Below, piece by piece: positions 4,628-33,089 of a stretch of 44,940 nt of DNA. Below the pieces are notes generated by a model that did not search any database, was not told the DNA's origin, and was given only the letters and a program-made list of their open reading frames with translations. The position numbers were made by a program, and so were the translations under genes. How positions within the stretch are numbered: position 1 is the first letter of the stretch; each line of letters opens with the position of its first letter. Source of the stretch: Vulcanimicrobiota bacterium (lineage in GTDB: Bacteria; Vulcanimicrobiota; Vulcanimicrobiia; Vulcanimicrobiales; Vulcanimicrobiaceae); the NCBI GenBank assembly GCA_028287525.1, contig JAQBPM010000132.1:1-44940 (forward strand), given 5' to 3'.

Positions 4628-4674
4628 GCCCTACGCCCGACACACGGCAGAGCGAATGAACAGGAGAGAGTCCC

Positions 4675-5449: not shown

Positions 5450-5450
5450 G

Positions 5451-6021: not shown

Positions 6022-6381
6022 CTATGGCCATGCGCGTTCAGTCGGAGCCGTACTATACAATCACTTCCGGTATACCATTGCTTCTGCCGAGCGCGACAAC
6101 GTGCATAAGAACGTTGGACGAACTCCTTGCCAAACAATGCTGCCAGACGACCTTTACACTCCAAGCCGACCGCGTCGGTGCGCTGTGCGAGGGATTCGAC
6201 ACTGAGAAAACCTTCAAAAAAGTTTTATTCCACGACGAATATCGACGACTAGGGTCTTGCCTGCTACCGGCGATATTGTCACCGTCACGCTGGCGCACTC
6301 TGAGCGAACGTGCGCCTGGCCTGTGAAACCGCCGACGACGTGGTAGGCCTCTTGTCGATTTGAACGTTTGCCGGTGGCTGT
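6022..6381. other. Upstream region of the EAL gene, no gene recognised
   Basis: About 360 bases with several short frames on both strands and no family motif. AT-richer patches occur around 6225-6240. It should contain the promoter of the EAL gene, but none could be singled out. Confidence 0.4.
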
Positions 6382-8565
6382 ATGGGACGACGAAACCATG
6401 CAATAGTGGAGGGCTGGCGCCGGCTATCAAATTTGCACGGCGCTGTTCTCATGTTCAGGGAGACTCTCTTGCCGCATAATTCGGGCTCCAGCGCTTCTTT
6501 CTCCGACGTCCTCTTCGACCTCAATCCCACCCCTATGTGGGTCTACGATGTGGAGACGCTTCGTTTTCTGAAGGTCAACGACGCGTCGATCGCCGCTTAT
6601 GGCTACTCGCGTGGGCAATTCCTCGCGATGACCATTCTGGATATCCGACCGCCCGAGGATCGGGACGACGTGGCCGCATGGGCGGCCGCGCGCGACACGA
6701 GCCAGGCCTTCCGCAGCACGGGGAGCTGGAAGCACCGGCGCTCTGACGGACTCCTCATCGACGTCGACGTCGCAAACTCGTCCCGCATTTCCTATGAAGG
6801 TCGCGCCGCCATTCTCGCGATGAGTTTCGACGTCACCGAACAGAACGACCGAATCGACGAGCTCGAGACGCATCGTGCCGCGCTGCAACAAGCGCAAGAA
6901 GCCGGAAACCTGGGCGGGTTCATGATGGACGTCCAGCAAGGCACCTTCCACCTCGCAGGCTTACTCGTTGGCGTTTACGGCCGTAAGGAGATCCCGCTTT
7001 CAGAGGCGGCGGCCGAAATAGCGCGCGTATGGGATCCCTCCGACGCTTCGGAGGGCGAACGCCTCATGCGTTCGTTCGAGCGCTTCGAGTCCTACGATGG
7101 TGAGTTTCGGATGGCCCTCGATGGAGAGATGCGGTGGTTCCACGGCCGTACCAGCGTGGTACGTGACTCGGACGGAAAGCCAACCGGCATCGTCGGCTTC
7201 GCGGGCGACGTGACCGACCGAAAGGCTGAGGCGGATCGCTTGTACGCGCTCGCCTTCACCGACGCTGCTACTGGCCTCCCGAATCGGGCCTCCCTCTTCG
7301 AGCACGTTGAGCGAAGCGGCTTTACGTTCGCTGCACTCGTCCTCATGCGCGTGACGTGGGTTGCCGAGGCTTCTCACCGATCGCAACAAGCGCGCATGCG
7401 GACTGCCAGCGCGATCGCGGCAAAGCTGCAGCGGTTGGCACCCGAAGATGCACTAGTATTCCGGTACAGCGAGAATACGTTTGCGATTCTCACCAAGAGG
7501 ACGGAGCGGGTTCGTGTGCCGGTCGCGCTTGCAAAACGGATCATCGTCGCGTTCGAACGGCCGGTATCCGAAGGCTGCGACGCCGAGTACGTCGTCATTC
7601 CGACGATCGGTGTAGCGGTCGCGGAGGGCTCGGGTTGCTCGATCGAAAAAGTCGCTCTTCGCGCTGAAGCTGCGCTCCACGAAGCGCAGCGCAGTCCCGA
7701 CGGTGTGGCGTTCTATACCGCAGAGCTCGAGAAAGTACACGATCGGCGAGCGACCATCGAACGAAATCTCAGGCACGCGATCGCGCAGCAGCGAGTCGGC
7801 GTCGTCTACCAGCCGATTTTATCGCTGAAGACGGGGCGAATCGCCGGCGCAGAAGCGCTGATGCGATGGGACTGTCCCGGCATCGGGCCAGTGCCGCCTT
7901 CTGAGTTCATCGCGATCGCGGAGGAGAGCGGCGTCATCCTGCGGCTGGGCGAATGGATCTTGCACGCCGCATGCCTGGAGGCGCGCAGCTGGCAGCTTCG
8001 CGGACTCGGACGCCTACGCATCGCGATCAATGTCTCGCCCCGACAGGTGGAACAGCGCGAGTTCGTGCGGCTCGTGTTGTCCGCGTGCGAGGACGTCGGT
8101 CTCGATCCGTGTGACGTCGAGCTTGAGATCACCGAGCGTGTCATGATGGACCGGGATGGGCCCGCTGTGCGGAACCTCGAAGCGCTGCGCCGCCGCGGTG
8201 TGCGCGTCTCCGTCGATGATTTCGGGACCGGCTACAGCGCCCTTAGTTACTTGGAATCGGTCCCGCTCGATGCGGTGAAGCTGGATCGCGCTTTCGTTGC
8301 GGCAGTGGGCGAAGGTGCGTTCCAAGGCGAGATCGCCGCGAGCGTCATCCGGCTGGCCCACGCTCGGGGGCTCACCGTTGTTGGCGAAGGCATTGAAACA
8401 GAGAGTCAAGTGGCCTGGCTGCGCGCAAACGGTTGCGACGAAGGACAAGGTTTCCTCTTCGCCCGCCCGATGGAAGGCGACGACTTCCAAGCGTTGGTGA
8501 GGCGATCGCAATCAGACATCTTTGCGGTCCTCGCGGCGGCGACTCCAGAGCTGCAGACGGCGTAA
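6382..8565 (+). CDS. PAS-PAS-degenerate GGDEF-EAL cyclic-di-GMP phosphodiesterase
   Basis: A 727-residue cytoplasmic signalling protein with no membrane segments. Order: PAS at about 35-150 (DLNPTPMWVYDVETLRFLKV), a second PAS-like module at 160-285, a GGDEF-type domain at 290-455 and an EAL domain at 465-715. The GGDEF signature is lost: the site reads RYSENTF near residue 360, so cyclase activity is not expected, although the LPNRASL start is kept. The EAL domain keeps E-A-L (near 490), INVS, ELEITE, DDFGTGYSAL (near 611), K-L-D and GEGIET (near 667), so c-di-GMP hydrolysis is likely. ATG 6382 is used; ATG 6451 is an alternative and neither has a strong ribosome site. A PAS-only gene follows. 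Confidence 0.92.
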   Translation: MGRRNHAIVEGWRRLSNLHGAVLMFRETLLPHNSGSSASFSDVLFDLNPTPMWVYDVETLRFLKVNDASIAAYGYSRGQFLAMTILDIRPPEDRDDVAAWAAARDTSQAFRSTGSWKHRRSDGLLIDVDVANSSRISYEGRAAILAMSFDVTEQNDRIDELETHRAALQQAQEAGNLGGFMMDVQQGTFHLAGLLVGVYGRKEIPLSEAAAEIARVWDPSDASEGERLMRSFERFESYDGEFRMALDGEMRWFHGRTSVVRDSDGKPTGIVGFAGDVTDRKAEADRLYALAFTDAATGLPNRASLFEHVERSGFTFAALVLMRVTWVAEASHRSQQARMRTASAIAAKLQRLAPEDALVFRYSENTFAILTKRTERVRVPVALAKRIIVAFERPVSEGCDAEYVVIPTIGVAVAEGSGCSIEKVALRAEAALHEAQRSPDGVAFYTAELEKVHDRRATIERNLRHAIAQQRVGVVYQPILSLKTGRIAGAEALMRWDCPGIGPVPPSEFIAIAEESGVILRLGEWILHAACLEARSWQLRGLGRLRIAINVSPRQVEQREFVRLVLSACEDVGLDPCDVELEITERVMMDRDGPAVRNLEALRRRGVRVSVDDFGTGYSALSYLESVPLDAVKLDRAFVAAVGEGAFQGEIAASVIRLAHARGLTVVGEGIETESQVAWLRANGCDEGQGFLFARPMEGDDFQALVRRSQSDIFAVLAAATPELQTA

Positions 8566-8618
8566 CTCGCCGGAATGCCATCCGGCGAACATGTCATCTT
8601 AACCGATATTCATTTGTG

Positions 8619-10472
8619 ATGACAAAGAAGTCACCGCCTCCGGGTGATCGCAGCGACGTGCCGTTAGTGGAATTGCTGGAATTCGCGATCGAGCAAGTCA
8701 ACGACGGCATCGCGATCATGAAATTCACGGGAGATGTAACCGTGCCGGTTCGCATCGTGTATGCCAACGAGACCATCGAACGGCTGAGTGGCTACTCGCG
8801 CGAAGAGCTTTTGGATCCTTCGAATCCTTTTCTCCAGGTTCAACCGCAAAATCGCGCGCTTTACGAAGCCCACTTTGCCGAAGTTCGGGCGGGGCAGCCG
8901 GTGCGGTTCGAGGTCGAACTCGGCGGAAAGGATCGCTCGACCTGGATGGATATCCGCTGGTCGCCGCTGCGGTATAGCACCGGTGGAGTAACGCATTACG
9001 TTGCGGTGCTGCGCGACATCACGGAGCGCCGCCAAATTCAAGCGGAGCAGGAGCTTCTCTATCGCGCGATCGAGCAGGCGCATGACGGGATCTGCATCCT
9101 CGAGTTCTCCGGCGGCGATCTGCATCGCCGCCACGTTACGTATGCGAATGACGCGGTCTGCGAGATGATGAAGCTGTCGCGCGAGCAGATTCTGACCCAG
9201 GGCTTGGCCCAACCCGTCTTTGCTGAGAATCCCGAATTACTCGAGCATTGCATCGCCGAGGTATCGCGCGGCGCTACGTTCGAGCACGACGTGCACGTAA
9301 GACGTGGCGACGATACGCTGCGGTGGCTCCACGTGACAGCCTCGCCATTCTACGTCGAACGCGACCGCGTCGGACGCTTGACCGTCACGTATCGTGACAT
9401 TGAAGATCGCAAGCGCAGCGAGGAACAGCTAACGCTCTTGCACTCGATCCTTTCGGAAACGTCGGATTTTATCGTGATCGCCAACACCACGCGACCATCG
9501 GAAGGCGGTCCACAGGTCACGTATGCCAATCCTGCCTTCGCGGAACTCGTCGGCCTCAAAGGCGACCGCGTCGTCGGTAGAGGGCTCCTAGAGTTTCTTA
9601 GCCCGCGCAACGAAGGGAAGCGGGTCGCCGGCGTCACATCGCGATTGGAGCGCCATCAGAGCATCGCGAACGAATTGCTGCTGCGGCGCATCGATGACGG
9701 CAACGATGTGTGGATCGAGCTGACCGGGCATCAGGTCCGCGGTGAAGGCGGTCGCCCCGTCTCGTGGTTCTTAATCGGAAAAGACATCAGCGTGCGCAAG
9801 CAGAGCTATGCGCAGACCGTGCAGCTCACGAAGGCGCTCGATCTGGCCGAGGAACCGATTGCCATCTACGGCGTGATCAAACCGTACGAGTTGAAGATGC
9901 AGCACATGAACGAGCGAGCTACGGCTTTCGATCAGCTGCTGTTTGAGAACGTGCTGCTAGATCCGTCGCAAGGCAAGTGGATCGAAAGCGTGTGGCCGGC
10001 GCTCGAGAGCGGGCGGAGCGTCAACCGGCTGGTCCGCGTGGCCGAGAACGATTCGCGGCGATGGGTAACGCTCGAGATTCTGCCGCTAAGTACGGGGAAG
10101 GATTCGCTTACCTCGATCATCGCGATCGAGCATGGGCTGCGGTTGGCTATGTACGACGGGCTGGCAGACGGCGTCGCAACCGCGCTCGCACTCGGCCGTG
10201 AGATATTACGCTACACGGATCTGGACGCGCGGCGCGATGCCTTCCTGGAGGTGCTGCGTGAAGAATGGTGCGCGAAGGGCTCATTTAACTTCACCGATCA
10301 CGTTGTCGATGTCGTGTTTCGGGTCAAAGATCGCAACGGCACCGCAGTTATGCCGGGGGGCGTGTTCTTCGAGCGATCGACTGCCGTAGACTTCTCTTGG
10401 TCAGGAGACAATCCGCCGCGCCGGCTCACTGCGCTACGAATCTTCTTGGAAACGCTGACCAGCTCTGACTAG
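8619..10472 (+). CDS. Multi-PAS sensor protein without an output domain
   Basis: A 617-residue protein starting at ATG 8619 (GTG 8616 possible). The open frame extends back to 8433 but that part overlaps the EAL gene and is Arg-rich, so it is rejected. Three clear PAS/PAC units follow one another: about 10-130 (DGIAIMKFTGDVTVPVRIVY through LRDITERRQ), 140-265 (DGICILEF to YRDIEDRKRSEEQ) and 270-395 (FIVIANTTRPSEGGPQVTYA to LIGKDISVRKQ). The rest (about 400-617) includes another PAS-like stretch and a tail with no recognised fold. No kinase, GGDEF, EAL, HTH or methyl-accepting domain is seen. It lies 53 bases after the EAL gene and may modulate it, which is inference. Confidence 0.85.
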   Translation: MTKKSPPPGDRSDVPLVELLEFAIEQVNDGIAIMKFTGDVTVPVRIVYANETIERLSGYSREELLDPSNPFLQVQPQNRALYEAHFAEVRAGQPVRFEVELGGKDRSTWMDIRWSPLRYSTGGVTHYVAVLRDITERRQIQAEQELLYRAIEQAHDGICILEFSGGDLHRRHVTYANDAVCEMMKLSREQILTQGLAQPVFAENPELLEHCIAEVSRGATFEHDVHVRRGDDTLRWLHVTASPFYVERDRVGRLTVTYRDIEDRKRSEEQLTLLHSILSETSDFIVIANTTRPSEGGPQVTYANPAFAELVGLKGDRVVGRGLLEFLSPRNEGKRVAGVTSRLERHQSIANELLLRRIDDGNDVWIELTGHQVRGEGGRPVSWFLIGKDISVRKQSYAQTVQLTKALDLAEEPIAIYGVIKPYELKMQHMNERATAFDQLLFENVLLDPSQGKWIESVWPALESGRSVNRLVRVAENDSRRWVTLEILPLSTGKDSLTSIIAIEHGLRLAMYDGLADGVATALALGREILRYTDLDARRDAFLEVLREEWCAKGSFNFTDHVVDVVFRVKDRNGTAVMPGGVFFERSTAVDFSWSGDNPPRRLTALRIFLETLTSSD

Positions 10473-12834: not shown

Positions 12835-15261
12835 ATGGAAGACGTCGCTTTCGGCGAGCTCCTGCGCGACCTGCGGGCGTCCGCCGGCCTCTCGCAGGAA
12901 GAGCTCGCCGAGCGCGCACGTCTCAGCCCCGGTGCGATCAGCGCGCTCGAACGCGGCGTTCGCCGCGCGCCGCAGCACCAGACCCTCGGCCTGCTGGTCG
13001 AAGCTCTCCAGCTCGCGGCGCCGGACCGCGACCGCATCGAGGCGGCCGCGTCTTCGGGTCGCCGCCGCGGCGCTCGCACCGCATCGAATGCCGGCGCGCC
13101 TCCGCACAATCTGCCGAACGTGTTGACGTCGTTTCACGGTCGCGCGCGCGATCTTGCCGACCTGGACCGGCTGACGGAATCGCGCCGCCTCATCACCCTG
13201 CTGGGCGCGGGCGGGGTCGGCAAGACCCGGCTCGCGCTGGAAGCGGCGCGCGCTCTGCTCGCGCAGTCCCGTTTCCCCGACGGCACGTGGCTCGTCGAGC
13301 TGGCTCCGCTCGGCGCCCCTGACCTCGTGACGAGCGCGATCGCGCAGGTGGCCGGCATCCGGGAGCACGCGGGTGAAGCACTGCTCGACACGCTCGCTGC
13401 GGCCCTGGCCACGAAAACGGCGTTGCTGCTCCTCGACAATTGCGAGCATCTGATCGACGAATGCGCGCGGGTTTCAGAGCGCCTTGCGCGTGATTGTCCG
13501 GGTTTGGTGATCATCGCGACGACGCGCGAGGCGCTGCGCGTCGACGGCGAATGCGTCGTGCGCATCGAGCCGCTCGCATACGACGACGAGCGGCGCGCCG
13601 ATCCCGCGCTGGATCTCTTCGTCGACCGGCTGATCGATGCCGACTTCGTTCGATTTTCCAGCCTGTCGGACGCGGATCGGGCGCACGCGGCGGCGATCTG
13701 CGTACGTCTCGACGGCATCCCGCTCGCACTCGAGCTCGCCGCCGGCCGCGCACGCGATCTCCCGCTCGCGCAGATCGTCGCGGGTCTCGACGAGCGCTTC
13801 ACGCTGCTCTCCAACGGCCGCCGCACCGCCGCTCCACGGCAGCATACGCTGCGGGGCATGATCGACTGGAGCTTCGCGCTTTTGAGCGCCGCCGAGCAAG
13901 AGCTGTTCGCGCGCCTGGGCCTCTTCGCCGGCACCTTCACTCCGGAAGCAGCCGCGCAGATCTGCGGCGAGCGTCCGCCGCTCGTACGCGACGGATTGGC
14001 CGCGCTGATCGCCAAGTCGCTGGTCACCGTCGTCGAAGACCGCGAAGGCCGCATGCGGTACCGGCTGCTCGAAACGATGCGCGCGTACGCACTCGATCGT
14101 TTCGCGGAGAGCGCCGGCGCCGACGCGGTCGCGCACCGCTTTGCGCGCTTTTTCCGCGCGACGGCGCAGGCCGCCGATCATCGCTACGGCCGGATACCGA
14201 ACCACGACTTCCTCGCCTCGGTGGAGCCGGAGCTCGACAACTTCCGCGCCGCCCTGATGTGGACGTTGGGCGCGCGCAACGACCTGCTGCTCGGCGCCGA
14301 GCTCGCCGGTGCGCTCGGATGGGTCTACCGGCAGACGTCGCTGTTCGCGGAAGGCACGCGCTGGTGCGAAAAAGCGCTCGAGGAGACCGCCGATCTGCCG
14401 AGCGTGGTCGCCGGCAGGCTGCACATGGCGCTGAGTTTCTTCTACTTCAACATGGGGCGGATGCAGCCGGCGTTCGACGCCGCACGGAGCGCGACGGCCG
14501 CGTACGACACGGGCGGGAACCCCACCGAGCTCGCCTGGGCGCTGACGCAGCAGGCATATTGCTTGTACCTCCTCGGACGTGCGGACGACGCACGTGACGC
14601 CGCCACCCGCGCCGTCGCGACGGCTCGCGGCCAGGACGATCCGCTGCGCCTCGCCGGTGCCCTCAACGCCTTCGCGCTGACGATTCCCCTCGAACGTGCC
14701 GCCGAACGCTTCGCGCCCCTCGAAGAAGCGATCCGCGCGTACCGCGCCGCCGGAGATCAGGGAGCGATCGTTCCGACTGCGAACTTGGCCGAGACGCACT
14801 ACGCGACGGGAAACTATGCAGCGGCGCTGGCGTGCGGCCTGGACGTCGTCGCGATGACGCGCAAGAACCGCGACCGGTCCAACCTCGCCGCCGCGCTGAC
14901 CAACGTCGCCGCATATGCCCTCACGGTGGACGACGTCGCACAGGCCGCCGAGGCGGCGGGCGAGGCACTGGGCTTGGTCCGCGACGTCGGCAAGACGCTC
15001 AACGCGATGTGCGCGCTGCAGCATCTCGGGAGCGTCGCGGCGCGCCGCGGTGCGTACGAGCGCGCCGCTCGGCTCGCCGGCGCCTCGAACCGCTTGTACG
15101 CGGAGTTCGGCCTGGCGCGCGAGTTCACCGAACAGTCGCTCTACGACCGAACGATCGCCGACATTCGCGGCGGACTCGACGACGCAGCGCTGCAGATTCT
15201 CCTGGACGAGGGTGCGGCGATGCCGCTCGAAGACACCATCGCGTACGCGCTGGCCGACTAG
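12835..15261 (+). CDS. XRE-HTH STAND ATPase transcriptional regulator with TPR-like tail
   Basis: An 808-residue regulator. Residues 5-65 are a Cro/C1-type HTH (LSQEELAERARLSPGAISAL). An NB-ARC-like STAND ATPase covers about 95-400, with Walker A GAGGVGKT near 124, Walker B LLLLDNCEHL near 197 and the sensor strand VIIATTREALRV. The winged-helix part contains RYRLLETMRAYALDRF. Residues 450-800 are Ala-rich helical repeats of TPR type. STAND regulators switch on ligand or partner binding to the repeats. ATG 12835 has only a weak ribosome site. Its stop overlaps the stop of the convergent gene at 15258. A paralogue of the same design is at 39609-42149. The surrounding exported-protein genes are possible targets, unproven. 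Confidence 0.92.
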   Translation: MEDVAFGELLRDLRASAGLSQEELAERARLSPGAISALERGVRRAPQHQTLGLLVEALQLAAPDRDRIEAAASSGRRRGARTASNAGAPPHNLPNVLTSFHGRARDLADLDRLTESRRLITLLGAGGVGKTRLALEAARALLAQSRFPDGTWLVELAPLGAPDLVTSAIAQVAGIREHAGEALLDTLAAALATKTALLLLDNCEHLIDECARVSERLARDCPGLVIIATTREALRVDGECVVRIEPLAYDDERRADPALDLFVDRLIDADFVRFSSLSDADRAHAAAICVRLDGIPLALELAAGRARDLPLAQIVAGLDERFTLLSNGRRTAAPRQHTLRGMIDWSFALLSAAEQELFARLGLFAGTFTPEAAAQICGERPPLVRDGLAALIAKSLVTVVEDREGRMRYRLLETMRAYALDRFAESAGADAVAHRFARFFRATAQAADHRYGRIPNHDFLASVEPELDNFRAALMWTLGARNDLLLGAELAGALGWVYRQTSLFAEGTRWCEKALEETADLPSVVAGRLHMALSFFYFNMGRMQPAFDAARSATAAYDTGGNPTELAWALTQQAYCLYLLGRADDARDAATRAVATARGQDDPLRLAGALNAFALTIPLERAAERFAPLEEAIRAYRAAGDQGAIVPTANLAETHYATGNYAAALACGLDVVAMTRKNRDRSNLAAALTNVAAYALTVDDVAQAAEAAGEALGLVRDVGKTLNAMCALQHLGSVAARRGAYERAARLAGASNRLYAEFGLAREFTEQSLYDRTIADIRGGLDDAALQILLDEGAAMPLEDTIAYALAD

Positions 15262-16721: not shown

Positions 16722-17276
16722 ATGATCGCTCGACGTGCCGCGCTTTGCTCGATGCTCTTAGCCTTGGTGCTCGGCGCCGACGCCGCAAACGCTCTCGCAA
16801 AGCCGACCCCTGTTCCGGGCGGAGCGAACCAGCTCGCCGGCGTGAGCGGAACGCTCGCGCAAACGCTGTTCAACGGCACGCTGCGGCTGCACCGCATGTC
16901 GCTCAAGGACGCGGTGCCGGCCGATAACGTTCACCCGAACGCCCCGGGCGAACGCACGCTCGTGTTTCGCGCGATCGTCAACAACGGCACGCATCACGAG
17001 GACCACGGCTATTTTGACGCGACGCTCGCCGATGCGGACGGGATCACCGTCACCGGGCGGCCGCTCGACGACGGCTGGAGCCTCGAACCCGGCGCCGGCG
17101 CGCGCGTCGTGAACGGCTTCTCCGTACCGGCCGGTTTCGTCCCGACGAAGCTGCTGCTGGTCGAAGCCGCGCACCCCAAGTCGCGCGCGTTCCGCATCAC
17201 GCTCAAACCCGGCGATCTTTCGTCAGCCCCGGGAGCGCCCGGCGCACCGCCGCCCGCACCGACCGCCGCGCCGTAA
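16722..17276 (+). CDS. Exported Ig-like (DUF4352-like) protein
   Basis: A 184-residue exported protein. ATG 16722 follows GGAGG, and the signal peptide runs to about 26 (MLLALVLGADAANALA). The mature part is an all-beta domain: LFNGTLRLHRMSLKDAVPAD, ERTLVFRAIVNNGTHHEDHG, YFDATLADADGITVTGRPL and a closing FRITLKPGDLS, ending in a Pro/Ala tail. The order of strands and the 'long-term versus new' phrase pattern resemble DUF4352-type immunoglobulin-like domains. It is followed after 42 bases by the FnIII-cupredoxin gene. Likely periplasmic or surface-exposed; ligand unknown. Confidence 0.65.
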   Translation: MIARRAALCSMLLALVLGADAANALAKPTPVPGGANQLAGVSGTLAQTLFNGTLRLHRMSLKDAVPADNVHPNAPGERTLVFRAIVNNGTHHEDHGYFDATLADADGITVTGRPLDDGWSLEPGAGARVVNGFSVPAGFVPTKLLLVEAAHPKSRAFRITLKPGDLSSAPGAPGAPPPAPTAAP

Positions 17277-17318: not shown

Positions 17319-18560
17319 ATGACGCGCACCGCCCGGCCAACCACAACCCTCGCGCGAGCAATCGCGGCGTTGCTTCTGGTCTGCATCCCGGAGGCGACCC
17401 TCGCCGGCCCCAATCTCGCCGGGTCGTTCGCGGACCCGCCCTACGCGCTCGCCGCGCACTGCGACCTCGCGCAACCGATCGCGTTCGTCAACCTCCTCGT
17501 CGTGAATCGCGGGGATGCGCGCACGGCGGCGATTCCCGTGACGGCGACGGACGGCGCCGGCGTTCTCCGCGGCTCGACGACGTTGCTACCGATACCGCCC
17601 GGAGCGCAGAGCGCGCTCCTCGTGCCGCTCCTCGACATGCCGTCGAATCCGGGTGCGCTCGGCGGTACGCACACCATCACGATATCGCTCGGCGCATTCC
17701 ACCTCGCACCGGTCGCAGTGACGGTTCCACCCACGTTCTGCGCGACGCAAGCGCCGGGCGCTGCGACGGGCGGCGTTTCGCGGTCGGCCGCCGAGCGCGC
17801 GGCGCACCTACCTCTTGCGGTGACCCCGGGGCCTTTGATCGGCGTCACCAAGCCCAGCTCGAACGTGGCGAGGATCACCGCCGAAAAGAGCACGCCGGCC
17901 GCCCCCGGCCAGATGTACATACCGAACTCCGCGAAGCAATGTGCGTGGCACGTGGGCGTGCTCGGTGCTTTTGCGTGCCCGGACTTGATCCGGTCGGGCG
18001 ACGTTCTGCTCGTCTGGGACTGGGAGCCGGGAAGCATAGGGCCGCGCGACATCGACGGCTTCCGCGTGTACCGCGTGGACGGCCACATGAAGAAACTCGT
18101 CTACACACGTGCGAACAAGAAAGACATCACGCTCTACGACCTGCCCGGACCATCGGGCACACACATCGGGCAGTGTTACGCCGTAGCCGCGTACGCCGGC
18201 TCTTTCGAGAGCGCGCTCAGCGGCATGGCCTGCCTGACCAGGCAAAACACGATATCGCTGGCGCAGCCGTCGGTAGTGCCTACGCCGTCGCCGACGCCGG
18301 TCCCGCGGCACGTCGTCATCCACATCACCGAGGATTCATTTCCGACCGATACGGTCGTGGCCGCGGGAGGCGACGTAACGTGGATCAACGATGACACGGA
18401 CGCCCATACGGTGGAGTTCGATGGAGGGAACTACGGCCGCGAGCTCGCGCCCGGCGGCAGATACACCCATACGTTCCCGGACAAGGGCGTAAATTACGTT
18501 GCGAACTATCTCTGCCGGTACCACATGAGCATGAACGGCAGGCTTACCGTCCTCCACTAA
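17319..18560 (+). CDS. Exported FnIII-like and cupredoxin fusion protein
   Basis: A 413-residue exported protein with a signal peptide ending near CIPEATLAG. Residues 35-150 form a beta domain (AFVNLLVVNRGDARTAAIPV). Residues 200-300 look like fibronectin type III (VLLVWDWEPGSIGPRDIDGF, RVYRVDGHMKKLVYTRANKK). After a Pro/Thr linker, residues 325-413 are a plastocyanin/amicyanin-type cupredoxin: DSFPTDTVVAAGGDVTWIND, H363 in DAHTVEF, C399 and H402 in YLCRYHMSM, and M405. All four type-1 copper ligands are thus in place, so it should carry an electron-transfer copper. It precedes a secreted di-haem enzyme on the same strand, a plausible redox partner. Confidence 0.85.
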   Translation: MTRTARPTTTLARAIAALLLVCIPEATLAGPNLAGSFADPPYALAAHCDLAQPIAFVNLLVVNRGDARTAAIPVTATDGAGVLRGSTTLLPIPPGAQSALLVPLLDMPSNPGALGGTHTITISLGAFHLAPVAVTVPPTFCATQAPGAATGGVSRSAAERAAHLPLAVTPGPLIGVTKPSSNVARITAEKSTPAAPGQMYIPNSAKQCAWHVGVLGAFACPDLIRSGDVLLVWDWEPGSIGPRDIDGFRVYRVDGHMKKLVYTRANKKDITLYDLPGPSGTHIGQCYAVAAYAGSFESALSGMACLTRQNTISLAQPSVVPTPSPTPVPRHVVIHITEDSFPTDTVVAAGGDVTWINDDTDAHTVEFDGGNYGRELAPGGRYTHTFPDKGVNYVANYLCRYHMSMNGRLTVLH

Positions 18561-18732
18561 CGGCAGGCACCAAGACCCTCGCGTTTGATGAAGTTCGTGA
18601 GAACATGGATCATCGCTAGGTAGTGGTACAAGCCGGAAAGCCAGATCGGATCGTACTGTGGCTCGGCGTTGGGGGGGCGGCGTGCGGGAATACTAGCCCG
18701 ACCAGATCTCTCCATCATGTCAGGAGACCACT

Positions 18733-21078
18733 ATGCGTCCATTTGTCACGATGGTATTGCTCGGTCTTTTTGCGGCAGTCGCTCCCTCGGGACCCGCCGC
18801 CGATGCCGCGGACGTGCCGAGCCTTGAAGCGCGGGTGGTGGCCGTCGGAATCCCGGGTGCCGGCGCGCTTAGTGCGGTCGGGGTGTTTCATCCCGGCGGT
18901 CCGATCCACGACAACCCGGCATTTGCGGCGATGACCGCACCGGGTCGGGTGCTCGACCCGGCCCGCGTCCTGGTCACGAGCACAGCGAATTTCGGCAGCC
19001 CGCGGATCCCCGGCTTTGCCGAAGGAGCGATCCTGTCGATCGATCCGAGTGGCACCACGACGATCGTCGTGCCGACGGCATTCGCCGCCGCGAGCGGACA
19101 GGCGACAGCCGTCGACGGGCGTGTCCAGCTCTTCAGCGCGGCCAGCCCAGCCTTCGTGAACGGCGTTAATTCACCGAAGGCTGTGACCGCCGAATTCCCG
19201 GCCGTCTCGAACCCGCTGGGGATCTCGATCAACAACGCCTTTGGTCGACTCTGGTTCCCGAGTTCGCCGCGCGGAGCGGCCGGTGCGGGGTTCGAGTCGA
19301 TCGTCGATCCGTCCGGAATCCCGCTCGCGAAGGCCCCTCATGTCGTCGCGGGCGGTGTTTTCACCGAAACGAAAACCAATCGTAGTCCGCAACTCGTCCA
19401 GGGCGCCATCGCCGGCGGCCTGATAGCGAACGCGTTCGTGGGGGCGTCCTCCGATGGAAGCAAACGCGCGGTGTTCGCCGCACTCGGGGCCGATGGCAGC
19501 CTCGTCCAAATCCACACCGAACAGGGACTCGACGGTCTCGCGCCCGCCGGAACGATCACGCCGCAGCGCGGAGGGGCCGAGCGTGCCGGGATGCTCTTCA
19601 ATTGGGTTCCCAATCGGATCTTGTATGTGACCGACGCCGCCGCGAACGCGATCCTCGCGATCCCGGTCGCCGACGACGGTAAGGTGTTTACGACCGGACC
19701 CGCACGGCGGATCACGGTTGCGGCACTCCACGCGCCCTTCGATCTCGCCCCCGCGGTCCCTGAATCGGCAAACGGCGTGTTCTCCAGCAACACCACCCTC
19801 GCAGGTGGTTCGGACCTCTACGTGCTCAACGGCGACGGAACGATCGCCCGCCTGCGGCAGGACGGCACCGTCGTCGCCGTCCGGCGCGTCTCGGTTCCCG
19901 GAGCCGGCGTCCTCGGTGCGGGACGTCTCGCCGGCATCGCTACCGCGCCTGACGCCGCGCATCTCTGGCTCACGGTCTCTGGATCGCTCGCCGCACAACC
20001 GGCAGGCGCGGTGATCGAGGTGCCGGCGTTCGGCGCGCGTGTCGCACGCGCCGCATTGCCGGCGACTCTCGCGCGGGCCGGCAATGCGGCATTTCGCCGC
20101 ACGTTCGATCCCCAATCGGGACTCGGTCCGTTGTTCAACGAGCGCTCGTGCATTGCGTGCCACCAAACGCCCTCCGCGGGCGGGATGGGACGCGATGGCC
20201 TCGCCGTCGTGCTACGCGTGGCGCATCTCGACCCGGCGTTCGACCCGCTGCTCGGCCACGGCGGTCCCGTGGCGCGCGCACATTCGGTGAGCGACCTTGG
20301 CTTCGCCTGCGGATTGACCGCGGGCGTTCCTGCGGAAGCGAACGCGATCTCGGTCCGGAACGCGCCCGCGCTGTTCAACATGGGCGCCATCGACGCGCTC
20401 GACGAGCGCGCGATCGTCGAGAGTGCGATCGCCTATCCCGACGGCGTGTACGGACGGCCGAATTGGATCGCAGCGCCGGACGGAACGCGCCGCGCGGGGC
20501 GCTTCGGGTGGAAAGCGGACACGGTAACCCTCGAAGCGTTCGTCGCGCAGGCGTTTCGCAACGAGCTGGGGGTGACGAGTCCCCTCGAGCCGCGCGACCT
20601 CGTCGAAAGCCGTCCAGGGGATCCTCGGTGCGTGGGCGAGCATGAGGCGGCGGAGGACGACGGAACGCTCGTGCGCGCGGTGACGGCGTTCGTCGCAACG
20701 CTCCAACCACCGTCCACCCCATGCGTGCGATGCGGCGCCGGAGCGTCGGTATTCGCATCAATCGGCTGCGCGGAGTGTCATGCGACGCGCGTACTCGCGC
20801 CGTCGCAGCGCCCGCTCTATTCCGATCTGCTGCTTCACGACATGGGTCCCGCTCTCGACGACGGCTTCGTGCAAGGAACGGCGCGCGGTGTCGACTGGCG
20901 CACGACGCCGCTCGCAGGTCTCGCGACCCGCCGACGCCTGCTCCACGATGGTCGCGCAATAACGGTCGCCGACGCGCTTCTTGCGCACGACGGAGAAGCG
21001 TCCCGTGCTGCACGCGCATTTCGAACGCTTGACGCGCAGAGCCGGTTTGCGCTGATCACGTTTCTGAACACGCTATAG
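18733..21078 (+). CDS. Exported beta-propeller/di-haem cytochrome c oxidoreductase (DUF1111-like)
   Basis: A 781-residue exported protein. ATG 18733 has AGGAG upstream and the signal peptide ends near GPAADAAD. Residues 35-445 are repeated beta blades (PNRILYVTDAAANAILAIPV, GSDLYVLNGDGTIARLRQDG), like NHL/SMP-30 propellers. Residues 455-781 are a cytochrome domain with two haem c sites, C473-I-A-C476-H477 and C679-A-E-C682-H683. The flanking LGPLFNERSCIACH, FGWKADTVTLEAFVAQAFRN and GAIDALDERAIVESAIAYPD patterns match di-haem 'thiol oxidoreductase' (DUF1111) proteins, relatives of MauG and cytochrome c peroxidase. It should act in the periplasm. The electron donor may be the cupredoxin upstream. 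Substrate unknown. Confidence 0.85.
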   Translation: MRPFVTMVLLGLFAAVAPSGPAADAADVPSLEARVVAVGIPGAGALSAVGVFHPGGPIHDNPAFAAMTAPGRVLDPARVLVTSTANFGSPRIPGFAEGAILSIDPSGTTTIVVPTAFAAASGQATAVDGRVQLFSAASPAFVNGVNSPKAVTAEFPAVSNPLGISINNAFGRLWFPSSPRGAAGAGFESIVDPSGIPLAKAPHVVAGGVFTETKTNRSPQLVQGAIAGGLIANAFVGASSDGSKRAVFAALGADGSLVQIHTEQGLDGLAPAGTITPQRGGAERAGMLFNWVPNRILYVTDAAANAILAIPVADDGKVFTTGPARRITVAALHAPFDLAPAVPESANGVFSSNTTLAGGSDLYVLNGDGTIARLRQDGTVVAVRRVSVPGAGVLGAGRLAGIATAPDAAHLWLTVSGSLAAQPAGAVIEVPAFGARVARAALPATLARAGNAAFRRTFDPQSGLGPLFNERSCIACHQTPSAGGMGRDGLAVVLRVAHLDPAFDPLLGHGGPVARAHSVSDLGFACGLTAGVPAEANAISVRNAPALFNMGAIDALDERAIVESAIAYPDGVYGRPNWIAAPDGTRRAGRFGWKADTVTLEAFVAQAFRNELGVTSPLEPRDLVESRPGDPRCVGEHEAAEDDGTLVRAVTAFVATLQPPSTPCVRCGAGASVFASIGCAECHATRVLAPSQRPLYSDLLLHDMGPALDDGFVQGTARGVDWRTTPLAGLATRRRLLHDGRAITVADALLAHDGEASRAARAFRTLDAQSRFALITFLNTL

Positions 21079-23158: not shown

Positions 23159-23535
23159 CGAAGCTCGTCGAGCGTGAGCGCGCCGGCCACGACGTGCGAG
23201 GAAGAAGCTCGTGGCGGGTGGGGGCGTGGTCCTGAATCGAGCCTCTCGGACATCTGCTTAGCCGTCTGCACTGCGCTTGACGCGGCGGTCGATCTGCAGA
23301 AAGCTGCATCTCGCCGACCAGATCTCCGAATGCGTCCTGGGGGATGGACAGGCCGTTAATGATTGCGGCCGCGGCGGCGCGCGCCACGGTTGCACGAGGA
23401 TCAGGCATAAAAGCGCTCTGTTGACTCCGTCTGCTCCCGATGCCCTTCGTATGGAAATGGCACGTTCAACGTACGACGCGGAAGGTACATTGTCAGTTAG
23501 CAGACACGTCGACATCGCCGCACTACGATCCAAAC
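23159..23535. other. Region upstream of iorA-like gene with possible minus-strand remnant
   Basis: On the minus strand ATG 23408 opens MPDPRATVARAAAAAIINGL, continuing SIPQDAFGDLVGEMQLSADR. A different frame further on reads ASSSHVVAGALTLDELRQFG. Together these look like a frameshifted small gene of unknown family. The region must also carry the promoter of the iorAB-like operon, which I could not locate with confidence. Confidence 0.3.
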
Positions 23536-23985
23536 ATGGTTTCGATTAACGTAAATGGTGCTCACCACACCATCGACGGTCCACCGGACACGCCATTGTT
23601 GTGGGTTATTCGCGACGAGCTGGCATTAACCGGAACAAAGTTTGGCTGCGGTGTCGCACAATGCGGAGCGTGTACCGTCCACGTGAATGGCGAGGCAACG
23701 CGTTCGTGCTCGTTCCCCGTCTCCGGTGCCGTCGGCAAGGAAGTGCGAACGATCGAAAGTCTGTCGCGCGACAATTCTCATCCGGTTCAACAGGCATGGA
23801 TCGCGGAGCAAGTCCCGCAATGCGGATACTGTCAATCAGGTCAAATCATGGCAGCCGTAGCCTTGCTTCGTAAACATCCACATCCAAGTAACGAACAGAT
23901 CGATCAAACGATGACGAATATTTGCCGATGCGGCACATACGACCGCATCCGCAGTGCGATTCACCGCGCCGCGACGGAGCCGTAG
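23536..23985 (+). CDS. iorA: (2Fe-2S) subunit of a two-subunit molybdenum hydroxylase (isoquinoline 1-oxidoreductase alpha-like)
   Basis: A 149-residue electron-transfer subunit. The plant-ferredoxin-type cluster is bound by C38, C43, C46 and C58 ([18 protein letters not shown]). The second cluster is bound by C96, C99, C130 and C132 (QCGYCQSGQ and NICRCGTYD). The order and length match the small subunit of isoquinoline 1-oxidoreductase and aldehyde-oxidising relatives. The upstream open frame is rejected; ATG 23536 begins [14 protein letters not shown], the normal family start. The large subunit starts one base after its stop, so the pair is an operon. It passes electrons from the molybdenum centre. 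The symbol reflects subunit type, not proven substrate. Confidence 0.9.
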
Positions 23986-23986
23986 G

Positions 23987-26110
23987 ATGGAAGCGCACTC
24001 CTTGAAGCGGACCGACTTCATAAAACTGACCGGCGCCCTGGGCGCAGGTCTTGGCCTCGGGTTCATCATGCCGGCACGAGCACAAAATCAGTTGAGTAAT
24101 CGTACCGTCTTTGCTCCTAGCGTTTGGGTACGCATTGCGCCCGACGAGACGATAACGGTAATGCTCAGTAAATCGGAGATGGGTCAAGGCGTGATTATGG
24201 GGATGCCGACGATTCTCGCCGATGAGCTCGACGCAAACATCGACCACGTCCGAACAGAATTTGCGCCGCCCAACCTGCGCTACATCGATCCCGACATTGG
24301 TGATCAGGTGACTGGGGGCAGTACTGCGGCGCATAGCGGCTGGATGCCCTTGCGCCGTGCGGGCGCTGCGGCTCGCGCGATGCTCGTCGCCGCCGCGGCG
24401 AAGCAGTGGGGGGTTGAGCCGTCCGAGTGCACGACGCGCGCGGGCTCCGTGTACCACCGGAGGTCAAATCGCACCGCCACGTATGGCAGCCTCGCGATCG
24501 CCGCGAGCGCACTTCCGGTCCCGACCGACGTGCCGCTCAAGTCGCCGGATCGGTTCACGCTCATTGGGAAGCCCCGGCCACGTACCGACATCCCGCTGAA
24601 GGTCAACGGTTCCGCACAATACGGCATCGACGTCCGCGTCCCAAATATGAAGTACGCAGCAATAGCTCGCTCACCGGTCTTCGGCGGACGCGTCAAAAGC
24701 TTCGATGCTCGGAAGGCAAAGGCTGTCCCTGGCGTCATCGACGTCGTGCAAATCTCGAACGGGGTCGCCATCGTCGCTAAGAACACGTGGGCGGCATTTC
24801 AAGGTAAGAATGCACTAGCGATCGTTTGGGATGAAGGCCCAAACGCCAAGGTGAGCACAGAGTCGCTCTTTGCGGAAGCCGAGCACCTCGCGCGAACTCG
24901 GAAGAACGAGCGCGTGGCAATCTCGCGCGGCAAGCCTGACATGGCCGCCGGTACGGTTGTCCAAGCGGAGTATCGGGCTCCGTTTCTTGCCCACGCTGCG
25001 ATGGAGCCGATGAATACGACGGCCGACGTGCGGGACGGTCGGTGCGAAGTCTGGACCCCGACCCAGGTGCAGCTGCGCGCACAGGCCGCAGCCGCAAAGG
25101 GCAGCGGCCTACCGCCCGAGCGGTGCACGATTCACACCACGTTCCTGGGCGGTGGTTTCGGCCGGCGCCTTGAGGCGGACTACGTGCAAGAGGCGGCTGA
25201 GGTTTCGAAGGCGATTCAGGGGCCGGTCAAGGTGACGTGGACCCGCGAGGACGACATCAAAGGTGACTTCTATCGCGCGATGAGCCTGGACGTGGTGCGT
25301 GGTGTCGTCTCCGGCGGCGAGCTCAAGGCGCTGTCATATCAGGTCGTCCAACCCTCATGGATCCGCCGCTGGCATCCTCCGGAGTTCAAGAACGGTATCG
25401 ACGCTGAGGACCTGAACGAAGTCATCAACGCCCCATACTTCGTGCCGAATTTTCGCGTCACGTACATCGATCACGAGCATGGCATTCCGATCGGATCGTG
25501 GCGTGCAACGAATGCTAATTGGCACGGATTTGTGACGGAGACCTTTATCGACGAACTGGCTCACGCGGCGGGAAAGAACCCGCTCGCATTTCGGCTCTCG
25601 CTGTTAAAGGGTAATCCACGTGCAGCAAACGTCTTGGAGCTAGCGGCGGAAAAGGCCGGCTGGGGTCTCAAGCGCGACGGAATCGCTCAGGGCCTTGCCG
25701 TCACCTTCTGGCACGGAAGCTATGCGGCAATGGTGGCGGACGTTTCGATGCGCGACAAGATGCCGAAGGTGCATCGCGTCGTCGCCGTCGTCGACTGCGG
25801 TACCGTAATCAATCCCGACATCGTCGCCCAACAAGCGCAGGGTGCGACAAACTTCGGTCTATCGGCGGCACTCACCGGGAAGATCACGATTGCGGATGGT
25901 CGAGTTGTCCAAAGCAATTTCTATGACTACACGGTTCTACGGATGGCCGATGCCCCATCGATCGAAGTCCACATCGTACCGAGCAGTGCGCCACCTAAGG
26001 CGATCGGCGAGGTATGTACTCCGCCGATCGCGCCGGCTGTCGGCAACGCAGTAGCTGTGTTGACCGGCAAACGAGTGCGAATGCTGCCCTTTGTTGACGC
26101 ACTTGCATAA
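23987..26110 (+). CDS. iorB: Molybdopterin-binding subunit of the IorAB-type hydroxylase
   Basis: A 707-residue xanthine-oxidase-family large subunit of the IorB type. The N-terminus LKRTDFIKLTGALGAGLGLG resembles a Tat signal with Lys-Arg in place of Arg-Arg, so export is possible. Family marks include MGQGVIMGMPTILADELD, GGGFGRRLEADYVQEA, the IorB signature GSWRATNANWHGFVTETFID, and a closing IGEVCTPPIAPAVGNAV whose E675 is the catalytic Glu of the G-x-G-E motif. It hydroxylates carbons next to nitrogen in heterocycles, or oxidises aldehydes, using molybdenum-cytosine cofactor. It starts one base after iorA and is followed after 23 bases by a membrane-protein gene. Substrate unproven. Confidence 0.9.
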   Translation: MEAHSLKRTDFIKLTGALGAGLGLGFIMPARAQNQLSNRTVFAPSVWVRIAPDETITVMLSKSEMGQGVIMGMPTILADELDANIDHVRTEFAPPNLRYIDPDIGDQVTGGSTAAHSGWMPLRRAGAAARAMLVAAAAKQWGVEPSECTTRAGSVYHRRSNRTATYGSLAIAASALPVPTDVPLKSPDRFTLIGKPRPRTDIPLKVNGSAQYGIDVRVPNMKYAAIARSPVFGGRVKSFDARKAKAVPGVIDVVQISNGVAIVAKNTWAAFQGKNALAIVWDEGPNAKVSTESLFAEAEHLARTRKNERVAISRGKPDMAAGTVVQAEYRAPFLAHAAMEPMNTTADVRDGRCEVWTPTQVQLRAQAAAAKGSGLPPERCTIHTTFLGGGFGRRLEADYVQEAAEVSKAIQGPVKVTWTREDDIKGDFYRAMSLDVVRGVVSGGELKALSYQVVQPSWIRRWHPPEFKNGIDAEDLNEVINAPYFVPNFRVTYIDHEHGIPIGSWRATNANWHGFVTETFIDELAHAAGKNPLAFRLSLLKGNPRAANVLELAAEKAGWGLKRDGIAQGLAVTFWHGSYAAMVADVSMRDKMPKVHRVVAVVDCGTVINPDIVAQQAQGATNFGLSAALTGKITIADGRVVQSNFYDYTVLRMADAPSIEVHIVPSSAPPKAIGEVCTPPIAPAVGNAVAVLTGKRVRMLPFVDALA

Positions 26111-29386: not shown

Positions 29387-29953
29387 ATGAGTATGTCCAA
29401 CGTTGTTGACAGAAATAGCGCTGACATTGCGGCGAAGACCACGCAGATCGCGCTGACCATCAACGGTCTCGATCGGCGTCTCGAGCTGGATCCGCGCACA
29501 TCGTTGCTTGACGCGCTGCGTGAACATCTCCATCTGACGGGCACCAAGAAGGGCTGCGATCACGGGCAATGTGGTGCTTGCACGGTGCTGATTAACGGCC
29601 GGCGCATCAACGCGTGTCTGACGCTCGCGGTCATGCACGAGGACGACGACATCCTGACGATCGAAGGTCTCGGGTCGCCGGGCGCCCTTCATACCCTGCA
29701 AGCCGCCTTCGTCGAGCGCGACGCCTTCCAGTGCGGCTATTGCACCCCGGGCCAGATCTGTTCGGCCGTGGGTATGCTGGCTGAAGCGAAGGCGGGGTGG
29801 CCGAGCCACGTCACGGCCGACGTCGGATCGCGCGACATCGTGTTGACCGACGGAGAGATCCGCGAGCGGATGAGCGGCAACATCTGTCGGTGCGCAGCCT
29901 ATCCGAACATCGTCGCGGCCATTCGCGATGTCGCGGAGGATGCTCGCACATGA
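29387..29953 (+). CDS. paoA: (2Fe-2S) subunit of PaoABC-type aldehyde oxidoreductase
   Basis: A 188-residue iron-sulfur subunit with both clusters: [16 protein letters not shown] with a downstream Cys (INACLTL), and [17 protein letters not shown] with GNICRCAAY. This matches the small subunit of PaoABC (YagTSR) and related three-subunit aldehyde oxidases. Unlike E. coli PaoA no Tat signal is present; the N-terminus is short and polar ([20 protein letters not shown]), suggesting a cytoplasmic enzyme. ATG 29387 has GGAG just upstream. Its stop overlaps the next start (ATGA), so translation is coupled. Confidence 0.9.
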
Positions 29954-30945
29954 GACCCTTCACCTACGAGCGCGCGACGGATTCGCGAGCGGCGGTGACC
30001 GCGGTGTCCAGAGCCGGCGCGAAATACATCAGCGGCGGCACGAACTTGCTCGATCTCATGAAGCTCGATATCGAGCAGCCGAGCCATTTGGTCGACATCA
30101 GCCGTTTGCCGCTGAAGGACATCGACGAGCTGCCTGACGGCGGATTGCGGATCGGCGCGCAGGCGGTGAACTCCGACGTTGCCGCTGATGGCCGCGTGCG
30201 TACGCGCTACCCGGTGCTCTCACAAGCACTGCTCGCGGGCGCGTCGGGCCAGTTGCGCAACAAGGCATCCGTCGGCGGCAATCTGCTGCAGCGCACCCGC
30301 TGTCCGTATTTCTCTGATACGGCCGCGGCGTGCAACAAGCGCGAACCCGGGTCTGGGTGCTCCGCAATCGGCGGCTTCAACCGCATCCACGCGATCCTTG
30401 GCGCGAGCGACGCCTGCATCGCGACACATCCTTCCGATATGGCCGTCGCGATGACCGCGCTCGACGCGCAGGTCGAACTGCTCGGTGCCGACCAGGCGGT
30501 CAGGCACGTCGCCCTGGTGGATTTCCACCGCCTGCCCGGCAACACGCCGCACATCGAGACCGTGTTGCAGCCGGGCGAGATGATCACGGCCGTCGTGCTG
30601 CCACCGCCGCCACCCGGCCGGCAACTGTATCGCAAGGTGCGCGACCGCGCTTCGTACGCCTTCGCGCTGGTGTCGGTCGCGGCGATCGTCGCGGCAGAGC
30701 GGGGAACGATCACCGCCGCGCGCGTCGCGTTCGGCGGAGTGGCGCACAAGCCGTGGCGCGGCACCGAAGCGGAGGCTGCGCTGATCGACCACCCCGCATC
30801 CGGAGCCACCTTCCGTGCCGCCGCCGATGCCGCTTTCGCGAGCGCCGTCGGACGGGGGCACAACAACTTCAAGATCGAGCTGGCAAAGCGCACCCTCTAC
30901 CGCACGCTGGCGCAAGTCACCCAGCCGGATGAGGACACACCATGA
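29950..30945 (+). CDS. paoB: FAD/4Fe-4S subunit of PaoABC-type aldehyde oxidoreductase
   Basis: A 331-residue FAD-binding subunit of the molybdenum hydroxylase family. ATG 29950 overlaps the paoA stop. The flavin site appears as [20 protein letters not shown] and [20 protein letters not shown]. The loop [20 protein letters not shown] followed by CSAIGG has the Cys pattern of PaoB, which binds an extra 4Fe-4S cluster. This distinguishes it from CoxM/XdhB types. It relays electrons from the 2Fe-2S subunit to the acceptor. Its stop overlaps the paoC start (ATGA). Confidence 0.9.
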
Positions 30946-33089
30946 CTGCGATGATCGGGAAGCCCGTGAATCGCGTCGACGGCCCGTTGAAGGTGAGCGG
31001 TCAGGCCACCTACGCGTACGAACACTGGGAGAATGACGTCGGCCAGCCGCTCTACGGCTTCATCGTCGGCGCCACGATCGGCAACGGACGTATCGCGCGG
31101 ATCGATACCACCCGTGCCGAACGCGCCGCCGGCGTGCAGCTGGTGATGACACATCTGAATGCACCTGTGCAAGGCATCCCCACCCCCGACCCATCCGTCC
31201 CCTTGCCATACTGGGTCGCGAAGCCGGAACTGAGCAGCCCCGACATTCACCATTACGGCCAGCCGGTGGCGCTCGTCGTCGCGACGACGTTCGAGCAGGC
31301 ACGAGCGGCATCCAATCTCGTCGACGTCGAGTACACCGCGGAGCCGGGACACTACGAATTCGCCGCACGCCACGATCAGGCGTACGCCCCGAAGACGCTG
31401 GTCATGGGAATTGCGACCGACACCGCGGTGGGCGATTTCGACTCCGCCTTCGCCGGCGCCGAGGTCAAGATCGATCAGCGCTTCACGACGCCGTATGAGT
31501 TCTCCCAGCCGATGGAACCGAATGTTTGCCTGGCAGTGCCGCATCGGGACGGGGAGGAGCTGACGGCCTACGTCAGCACGCAGATCGTCTCTGCGGCCCG
31601 TGCCAGAATTGCCAAGACGCTCCTGATGGACCCGCAGCGGATCGACATCGTCGCGCCGTACATCGGCGGGGGATTTGGCTCGAAGCTGGCGGTCCACGCC
31701 GAGACGATCCTCGCGCTCCTCGCGGCTCGGCAGTTGAAGCAGCCGGTCAAGGTCGCGATGACCCGGCAGCAGATCTTTCAACTGGTCGGTATGCGCACCA
31801 CGTCGAGCCAACGTGTGCGCCTTGGCGCGGAGCGTGATGGACGACTGGTCGCCCTTGCCCATGAGGCGACGATGTACGCCAACCCCCAGGAGGAATGGGC
31901 CGAGCCGATGGCCGCCTTCCTGCGCAGCCTTTACGCCGCGCCCAACCGGCTGACGCGCCATCGGCTGGTGCCGCTCGATCTGCAGGGTAATGAAGATGTC
32001 CGAGCGCCGGGTGAGGCGCCGGGCTTGCTGGCGCTTGAGTCGGCGATGGACGAACTCGCGCATGCGCTCGCGATGGACCCCGTCGAGCTGCGGATCGGGA
32101 ACGAGCCGACGCGCGATCCCGAGCGTGACGTGCCCTTCTCGGACCGCCGTCTCGTCGAGTGCATGCGCGAAGGGGCGCACCGCTTCGGCTGGGAGGGCCG
32201 CCCCGCTCGACCCGGGAGCCGGCGCGACGCGCGGTGGCTGGTCGGCTACGGCATGGCGGCGGCCAGCCGCGGGCATCCCCAGGCGCCGACCAAGGCGCGC
32301 GTTCGCATCGGAGCCGACGGGAACGCCGTCGTCCAGTCGGACATGACCGACATCGGGACCGGCACCTACACGATCCTGACCCAGGTCGCCGCCGAATGCC
32401 TCGGGCTGCCGATGGACCGCGTCCGGGTCGAGCTCGGACGTTCGGAGTTTCCAACCAGTTGGGGTTCAGGCGGCTCGTGGGGCGCCGCCAACTCGAGCAA
32501 TGCGGTCCGCCGCGCGTGCGAGGCGCTGTGCGAGAAGCAGCGAACCGCGGATGGTCGCATCCCGGCCGAAGGGCTCGAAGCGGAAGGCGAGATCGTCGGC
32601 GCGTCCGATGATCCGAACTTCACAAACTACTCGATGAGCAGCTACGGGGCCCACTTCGCCGAAGTCGGCGTCGACATCGACACCTGCGAGATCCGGCTCC
32701 GCCGCATGCTGGGCGTGTTCGCGGCAGGGCGCATCCTGAACCACAAGACCGCGCGCTCGCAGCTGATCGGCGGCATGATTTGGGGGGTGGGCGCGGCGCT
32801 GCACGAAGAGGCCGTCATCGACAGCCGCTCCGGCGCCTTCGTCAACCGTGATCTCGCCGAATACTTGGTGCCGGTGCACGCCGACATTCCAGAGATCGAC
32901 GCCATCGTGCTCGACGGCTTCGACGACAAAGCGAACGCACTCGGCGTTAAGGGCATCGGTGAGTTGAGCATCTGCGGCGCCGGAGCGTCGATCGCGAATG
33001 CGGTGTTCAACGCCACCGGCGTGCGGGTGCGCGATTTCCCCATCACGCTCGACAAGGTGTTGCCCGGCTTGCCGCTCGCGGAGGTCTGA
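30942..33089 (+). CDS. paoC: Molybdopterin subunit of PaoABC-type aldehyde oxidoreductase
   Basis: A 715-residue large subunit. ATG 30942 overlaps the paoB stop. Marks include [58 protein letters not shown]-type turn ([12 protein letters not shown]), [20 protein letters not shown] and the closing [20 protein letters not shown], in which E674 is the catalytic Glu. It oxidises aldehydes, often aromatic, to acids with molybdopterin cytosine dinucleotide. The last 65 codons and downstream DNA are repeated at about 34395-34605, where only the 3' end remains. Confidence 0.92.

Follow-up and report, generated by a model that had tools for sequence, protein, structure and literature searches.

A recurring unit of a beta-propeller and a predicted di-haem oxidoreductase in a Vulcanimicrobiota genome

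We analyzed a stretch of 44,940 nucleotides from a Vulcanimicrobiota bacterium of the family Vulcanimicrobiaceae (assembly GCA_028287525.1, contig JAQBPM010000132.1, positions 1 to 44,940), hereafter called the window. It encodes a 413-amino acid (aa) protein ending in a cupredoxin domain and, next to it on the same strand, a 781-aa protein in which a beta-propeller precedes a di-haem oxidoreductase domain (DHOR, also DUF1111). The original prediction, made from the letters of the DNA, took these two proteins for an extracytoplasmic redox pair. Both reading frames are indeed open, and the 781-aa protein is well supported as a predicted exported redox enzyme. However, the unit that recurs in other genomes is the propeller with the DHOR, not the cupredoxin with the DHOR; it is the main finding here, while the copper pairing has indirect support from the lineage. 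We propose, with a probability of about 0.62, that the 781-aa protein is exported and functions as a di-haem c oxidoreductase of the bacterial cytochrome c peroxidase (bCCP)/MauG/DHOR kind, with a dedicated beta-propeller partner, fused to it here and in some phyla and split from it elsewhere.

The C-terminal half was characterized by profile comparison. Like PF06537 (DHOR) proteins, the window protein has a signal-like start, a score above the cutoff (94.2 bits against 22, residues 539-781) and two CxxCH motifs, at residues 473 and 679, which had been correctly predicted to be of the DUF1111 type. Unlike them, it has a propeller in front, and its match is limited to model positions 212-499: positions 1-211 have no match in the protein, the best stretch beginning at position 212. 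Therefore, it is a DHOR-related variant. A profile built from nine propeller-linked and two stand-alone DHORs (A6), all eleven of which match PF06537 at E ≤ 0.001, was compared with solved chains. It matched bCCPs (best E 3.5e-6), the gamma subunit of hydrazine synthase (5c2v chain C, 4.7e-6) and MauG (0.007); the top row was a cytochrome c555 trimer, matching solely around one haem motif. Hydrazine synthase gamma and bCCPs score alike against the profile, and by sequence the DHOR half is assigned to the bCCP/MauG superfamily.

Invariant in all nine propeller-linked DHORs are both CxxCH motifs, His702, His738, His752, Cys526 and Cys633. His752 is aligned with a methionine of the peroxidase 3o5c and lies one position off a methionine in 1eb7; we take these methionines to be haem ligands. 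This alignment suggests that haem II is probably a bis-His haem (His683/His752). Both Calidithermus proteins have six cysteines, four of them in the haem motifs and two equivalent to Cys526 and Cys633. As these two are the only cysteines outside the motifs in the Calidithermus proteins, the pair may be joined in a disulfide; a bolder possibility is that one of the two is linked to a haem.

The predicted beta-propeller held up in modelling. A model built from 11 sequences had a mean predicted local distance difference test score (pLDDT) of 71.6 and a predicted template modelling score of 0.80, with pLDDT below 50 at residues 120-138 and 144-191. In fold it resembled DFPase, phytase and NHL propellers (Z 17-19), the alignments covering 230-263 of its 408 residues. 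The likeness to DFPase/SMP-30, phytase and NHL propellers is one of fold: identity is 9-14%, and a shared function is not implied. No Pfam family matched any of the 11 rows better than E 0.022. The weak candidates FG-GAP_3 (E 0.022), DUF6383 (0.078) and DUF4394 (0.1), each found in one of the 11 rows, were rejected, as was ScyD/ScyE (18.9 bits, 80 required). Thus the propeller does not belong to a separate known enzyme of Pfam or NCBIfam; it is a domain of ∼410 residues missing from the family libraries searched.

To find further propellers, we scanned species genomes with two 8-residue patterns taken from the alignment of two Vulcanimicrobiota propellers. An exact match to either pattern was required, and hence the ten other confirmed propeller loci are a lower bound. 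Together with the window they represent seven phyla, the window's phylum among them. At five of the ten loci the propeller and the DHOR are fused (L064, Burkholderiaceae; L065, Candidatus Eremiobacterota; L066 and L067, both Calidithermus; L070, Betaproteobacteria). At two they are adjoining genes, the DHOR following the propeller with an overlap, given the chosen start codons, of 11 bases in L063 (Chloroflexota) and 17 bases in L069 (Gemmatimonadaceae). At L072 (Epsilonproteobacteria) the order is DHOR, porin, propeller, while L068 (Acidobacteriaceae; 5.8-kb contig) and L071 (Chloroflexi; 10-kb flanks) have the propeller only. The L072 porin matches DcaP (34.4 bits, cutoff 27), and a 45.8% identical counterpart with no Pfam match directly precedes the propeller at L069.

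The propeller-DHOR family is rare. Among 149 genomes of the window's phylum, the fusion was found in the window's genome (G000) and in G028 only; 111 genomes of the phylum of Calidithermus yielded only the two already found, and 297 genomes of the phylum of L068 yielded the L068 genome and one 19-bit match. Searches of plasmids and viral contigs found no propeller relatives. Since the family is rare and scattered over seven phyla, mostly in metagenome bins, it has probably moved horizontally. Across the nine genomes that carry both halves, counting the window's, the pairwise distances of the two halves correlate with r = 0.94 (36 non-independent pairs). In the trees of both halves, the window pairs with L065 and the two Calidithermus proteins pair with each other, each with 100% bootstrap; support for uniting the four is 88% for the propeller and 44% for the DHOR, and deeper branches are mostly weak.

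Several observations weigh against a dedicated partnership. Parallel distances are also expected of any co-inherited gene pair. Two of the 11 propellers have no nearby DHOR: the genome of L068 has only distant DHORs, and that of L071 (G163) has no DHOR match. Moreover, eight of the ten other loci come from metagenome bins, judging from the record titles. Finally, a model of the complete fusion protein reached a mean pLDDT of 58.6, too low to position the two domains relative to each other.

Genes of other kinds are found beside some of these loci. In G028, a LodA/GoxA-type oxidase gene (L050, 6047-8032; LodA_N, 239 bits) is divergent from the propeller-DHOR gene, and amine oxidase and PQQ dehydrogenase genes lie on its other side. 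At L069, the porin, propeller and DHOR genes are preceded by genes for two tandem related proteins (5277-8508), which have no Pfam match and may be vanadium haloperoxidase relatives.

Among described systems, hydrazine synthase offers the nearest analogue, with its propeller and di-haem components. According to PMC12758564, that enzyme combines a cofactor-free beta propeller with a bCCP/MauG-like di-haem gamma subunit, encoded by fused or separate genes; beta and gamma are fused in 'Ca. Scalindua japonica', a third cysteine of gamma is linked to haem, and distant fused beta-gamma relatives are reported as prevalent. This fusion is a precedent for the layout (PMC12758564 and PMC12607021). Like hydrazine synthase beta-gamma as described there, our unit consists of a propeller and a di-haem c domain, fused or split, with the haem motifs at the C-terminal end, and the DHOR half matches the gamma subunit as given above. 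By sequence, the propeller shows no homology to hydrazine synthase beta: its profile (A3) matched none of the solved chains at E ≤ 10, though 5c2v and 5c2w are in the collection. Hydrazine synthase was also not among the 50 matches listed by each fold search, a listing that excludes nothing. Hydrazine synthase beta is seven-bladed, its sixth blade carrying an insert, and our propeller model is weak at the two segments of low pLDDT. No Pfam match to the alpha subunit was found in the window, where 37 of the 38 called genes were scanned (all but 37186-37491). The fusion of a propeller to DUF1111 had been called unusual. This is fair for the window's propeller, but enzymes made of a di-haem part and a propeller exist, hydrazine synthase beta-gamma being one (PMC12758564). 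In literature searches of open PMC papers, we recognised no published description of a propeller-DHOR family.

If the 781-aa protein works as we propose, electrons would enter at the C-terminal haem II, with its bis-His look, and pass on to the N-terminal haem I (His477), whose second side would be open or exchangeable. Haem I would be the turnover site for a small oxidant or substrate. The propeller would cover or complete this site and would select or scaffold the substrate, in the manner of the hydrazine synthase propeller. In the window's genome, the upstream cupredoxin protein may donate electrons to the DHOR. A bolder version, which we consider tentative and on balance doubtful, is that the propeller-DHOR proteins are an undescribed, horizontally spread family that reached the hydrazine synthase beta-gamma design independently or shares it. 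Cys526 would then possibly be a third covalent link to haem I, the propeller would be part of a substrate channel, and the DHORs of Vulcanimicrobiota would have recruited copper donors.

Table 1. Features of the window around the propeller-DHOR gene
Feature	Position	Strand	Basis or remark
184-aa protein gene, signal-like start	16722..17276	+	Open reading frame call; 42 bp upstream of the cupredoxin gene
413-aa cupredoxin fusion, signal-like start	17319..18560	+	Open reading frame, at the coordinates originally predicted
Cupredoxin domain	18306..18551	+	Site of the PF13473 match
His363 codon, candidate copper ligand	18405..18407	+	Sequence
Copper ligand loop Cys399-x2-His402-x2-Met405	18513..18533	+	Sequence; aligned with the amicyanin loop
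Intergenic gap, 172 bp	18561..18732	+	Without a terminator-like site
781-aa propeller-DHOR fusion, signal-like start	18733..21078	+	Open reading frame, same strand as the cupredoxin gene; Pfam and recurrence
Beta-propeller domain, no Pfam family	18814..20037	+	Model and fold search; 75 positions identical across all 11 rows, core GISINNAFGR-W
First haem c motif CIACH, residues 473-477	20149..20163	+	Sequence; conserved
Cys526	20308..20310	+	Invariant in 9/9 propeller-linked DHORs
PF06537 (DHOR) match, model positions 212-499	20347..21075	+	Pfam
Cys633	20629..20631	+	Invariant in 9/9 propeller-linked DHORs
Second haem c motif CAECH, residues 679-683	20767..20781	+	Sequence; conserved
His752, candidate sixth ligand of haem II	20986..20988	+	Invariant in 9/9 propeller-linked DHORs; putative ligand

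The 413-aa protein appears by eye to consist of an Ig-like N-terminal part, an FnIII-like middle part with four conserved cysteines and a C-terminal cupredoxin. The FnIII-like domains of the original prediction are plausible by eye, but neither Pfam nor a profile search of solved chains matched an FnIII-type family in the region ahead of the cupredoxin. The candidate ligands of the type-1 copper site lie where they were predicted, His, Cys, His and Met following in order (H363, C399, H402, M405), and by eye this set is kept in the relatives from G009, G004 and G013. The domain scores 20.2 bits against PF13473, below the Pfam cutoff of 27, and 115.8 bits against a local cupredoxin profile of 22 rows that include its own. 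Its best matches among solved chains have E 3.6e-4, for a copper nitrite reductase, and E 0.0033, for amicyanin, and it falls far short of the NCBIfam amicyanin model TIGR02657 (16 bits, cutoff 110.2).

Of 148 related genomes, the window's and G009 have a nearly complete cupredoxin fusion, while G004 and G013 have the middle and cupredoxin part. The closest syntenic locus, in G017 (L056; fusion gene 3901-5457), has counterparts of five window genes between 11114 and 18560. Its fusion protein carries a different C-terminal module, and there is no DHOR at the locus. A second copy in the window's genome (contig C496; L055, 3364-4932) has a C-terminal region that matches CBM96 weakly (17.9 bits against 26); this end and that of the L056 protein align with each other. 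The three proteins (window 17319-18560, L055 and L056) thus make up, on alignment, one exported family with an exchangeable C-terminal module, either a cupredoxin or a weakly CBM96-like one; the cupredoxin is taken for such a module because the proteins at L056 and C496 end differently. The family of the 184-aa protein encoded just upstream is present in 31 of 118 related genomes. Its 70% identical counterpart in G017 also adjoins the related fusion gene, with the order swapped; next to the second fusion gene, on C496, no copy of the 184-aa gene turned up in a direct search.

It is unlikely that the propeller-DHOR enzyme has the type-1 cupredoxin fusion as its dedicated electron donor. Cupredoxins are periplasmic electron carriers, the two genes lie on the same strand 172 bp apart with no terminator-like site between them, and four of the six other genomes tested from the window's bacterial family have a PF13473 match no more than 5 kb from a DHOR (0.09 expected). 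However, the cupredoxin fusion and the propeller-DHOR fusion overlap in only one genome of the 148, the window's own: the genomes of the cupredoxin fusion relatives (G009, G004 and G013) have no propeller-DHOR gene, and none of the ten other propeller loci has a cupredoxin in the flanking DNA scanned with local profiles, four of their contigs being shorter than 8 kb. Given this distribution across relatives and other propeller loci, we reject the cupredoxin-DHOR pair as the conserved unit. Of the redox pair originally predicted, the exported redox enzyme stands, while the copper-haem pair is a neighbourhood of one genome. In a protein search, three of the ten other propeller genomes matched the window cupredoxin. 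Since all ten have a PF13473 match somewhere (as do all 23 genomes searched), a donor cupredoxin may be encoded at a distance from the propeller.

The 5-kb test was positive in G008, G034, G046 and G059 and negative in G028 and G037; the Poisson P of 2.5e-6 assumes independence and is too small, because the four loci are related. The G037 DHOR is a weak match (E 0.001, absent from the PF06537 matches) and the G028 DHOR is the other fusion; without both the count is 4/4. The test was done without G001 and G052, which have weak PF06537 matches; flank profiles showed no cupredoxin in G001, and in G052 a truncated one, which was not counted, and a COX2-like gene 3 kb away. Outside the family, none of 16 genomes had a cupredoxin that close to a DHOR (0.12 expected); among them, G163 has no DHOR, and the DHORs of G119 and G094 are on contigs shorter than 9 kb. 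Local profiles run on DHOR flanks found five complete cupredoxins, the window's included, and a truncated one at nine loci of the window's family, compared with one at 30 'same domain' loci and none at six loci of other Vulcanimicrobiota families.

The cupredoxins lying close to DHORs in the other family genomes differ from the window's. Those of G034, G046 and G059 have a CuA-like loop C-x3-C-x3-H-x2-M, and the G046 protein scores above the COX2 cutoff (27.2 bits against 22). The G008 one is separated from the DHOR by one gene, and a COX2-like gene lies close by on the opposite strand. Therefore, the DHORs of this family do lie near copper proteins, but of other kinds than the window's, which looks like a local, exchangeable neighbour and not a part of the recurring unit. 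The CuA-like cupredoxins are small, have signal-like starts and adjoin stand-alone DHOR genes (L060, 8441-8806, in G046; L059, ∼8607-8969, in G059; L061, up to 10209, in G034). Such a protein and the adjoining DHOR are a possible copper-haem pair in their own right.

In the methylamine dehydrogenase/MauG/amicyanin system, a propeller subunit occurs together with a di-haem enzyme and a cupredoxin. The window has the same three kinds of component, and amicyanin is a solved relative of its cupredoxin; unlike that system, it misses the amicyanin cutoff, as noted above, and no methylamine dehydrogenase match was found in the window genes scanned. As MauG relatives modify proteins, the DHOR might instead be a MauG/MbnH-like maturase that oxidises side chains of a partner protein, either the propeller or exported neighbours. 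We consider this quite improbable. MauG chains are among the solved relatives, and the NCBIfam MauG model TIGR03791 is weakly matched by two of 14 rows (best E 3.5e-4), but the window row has no match, and an enzyme fused to its own substrate would be odd for a maturase. Moreover, when the genes of the loci were compared, the porin of L069 and L072 was the only likely partner gene common to loci of different genera; apart from it, two further genes of L063 and L072 match each other at 25%. An iron-uptake DHOR of the imelysin/Efe kind, working with metal-binding exported proteins, is less probable still, at a chance of a few in a hundred. PMC3143127 reports imelysin genes together with DUF1111 genes in operons under Fur control, and a cupredoxin-like domain in EfeO. 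Against this, no imelysin match was found in the window genes scanned or in ten scanned neighbour genes of propeller loci.

If the propeller of the proposed propeller-DHOR enzyme is part of the active site, the family offers a small two-haem system, fused or split, for studying the effect of a cofactor-free propeller on a peroxidase-type di-haem protein. The carriers include two named Calidithermus strains. With hydrazine synthase, that question must be addressed in its hosts, the anammox bacteria, which are known from enrichment cultures.

In the window itself, the sequence AGGAG precedes the start codon at 18733, and no promoter-like site was found between 16400 and 21400. Downstream, there are two separate molybdenum hydroxylase gene sets of the xanthine/aldehyde oxidoreductase-like type (23440-26110 and 29387-33089) and a tandem repeat with a 33-bp unit in 2.7 copies (37345-37431). 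In addition, the window encodes two large regulator-like proteins with helix-turn-helix, ATPase and TPR parts (12835-15261 and 39525-42149), which are related to one and the same G017 gene with 58% and 36% identity, respectively.

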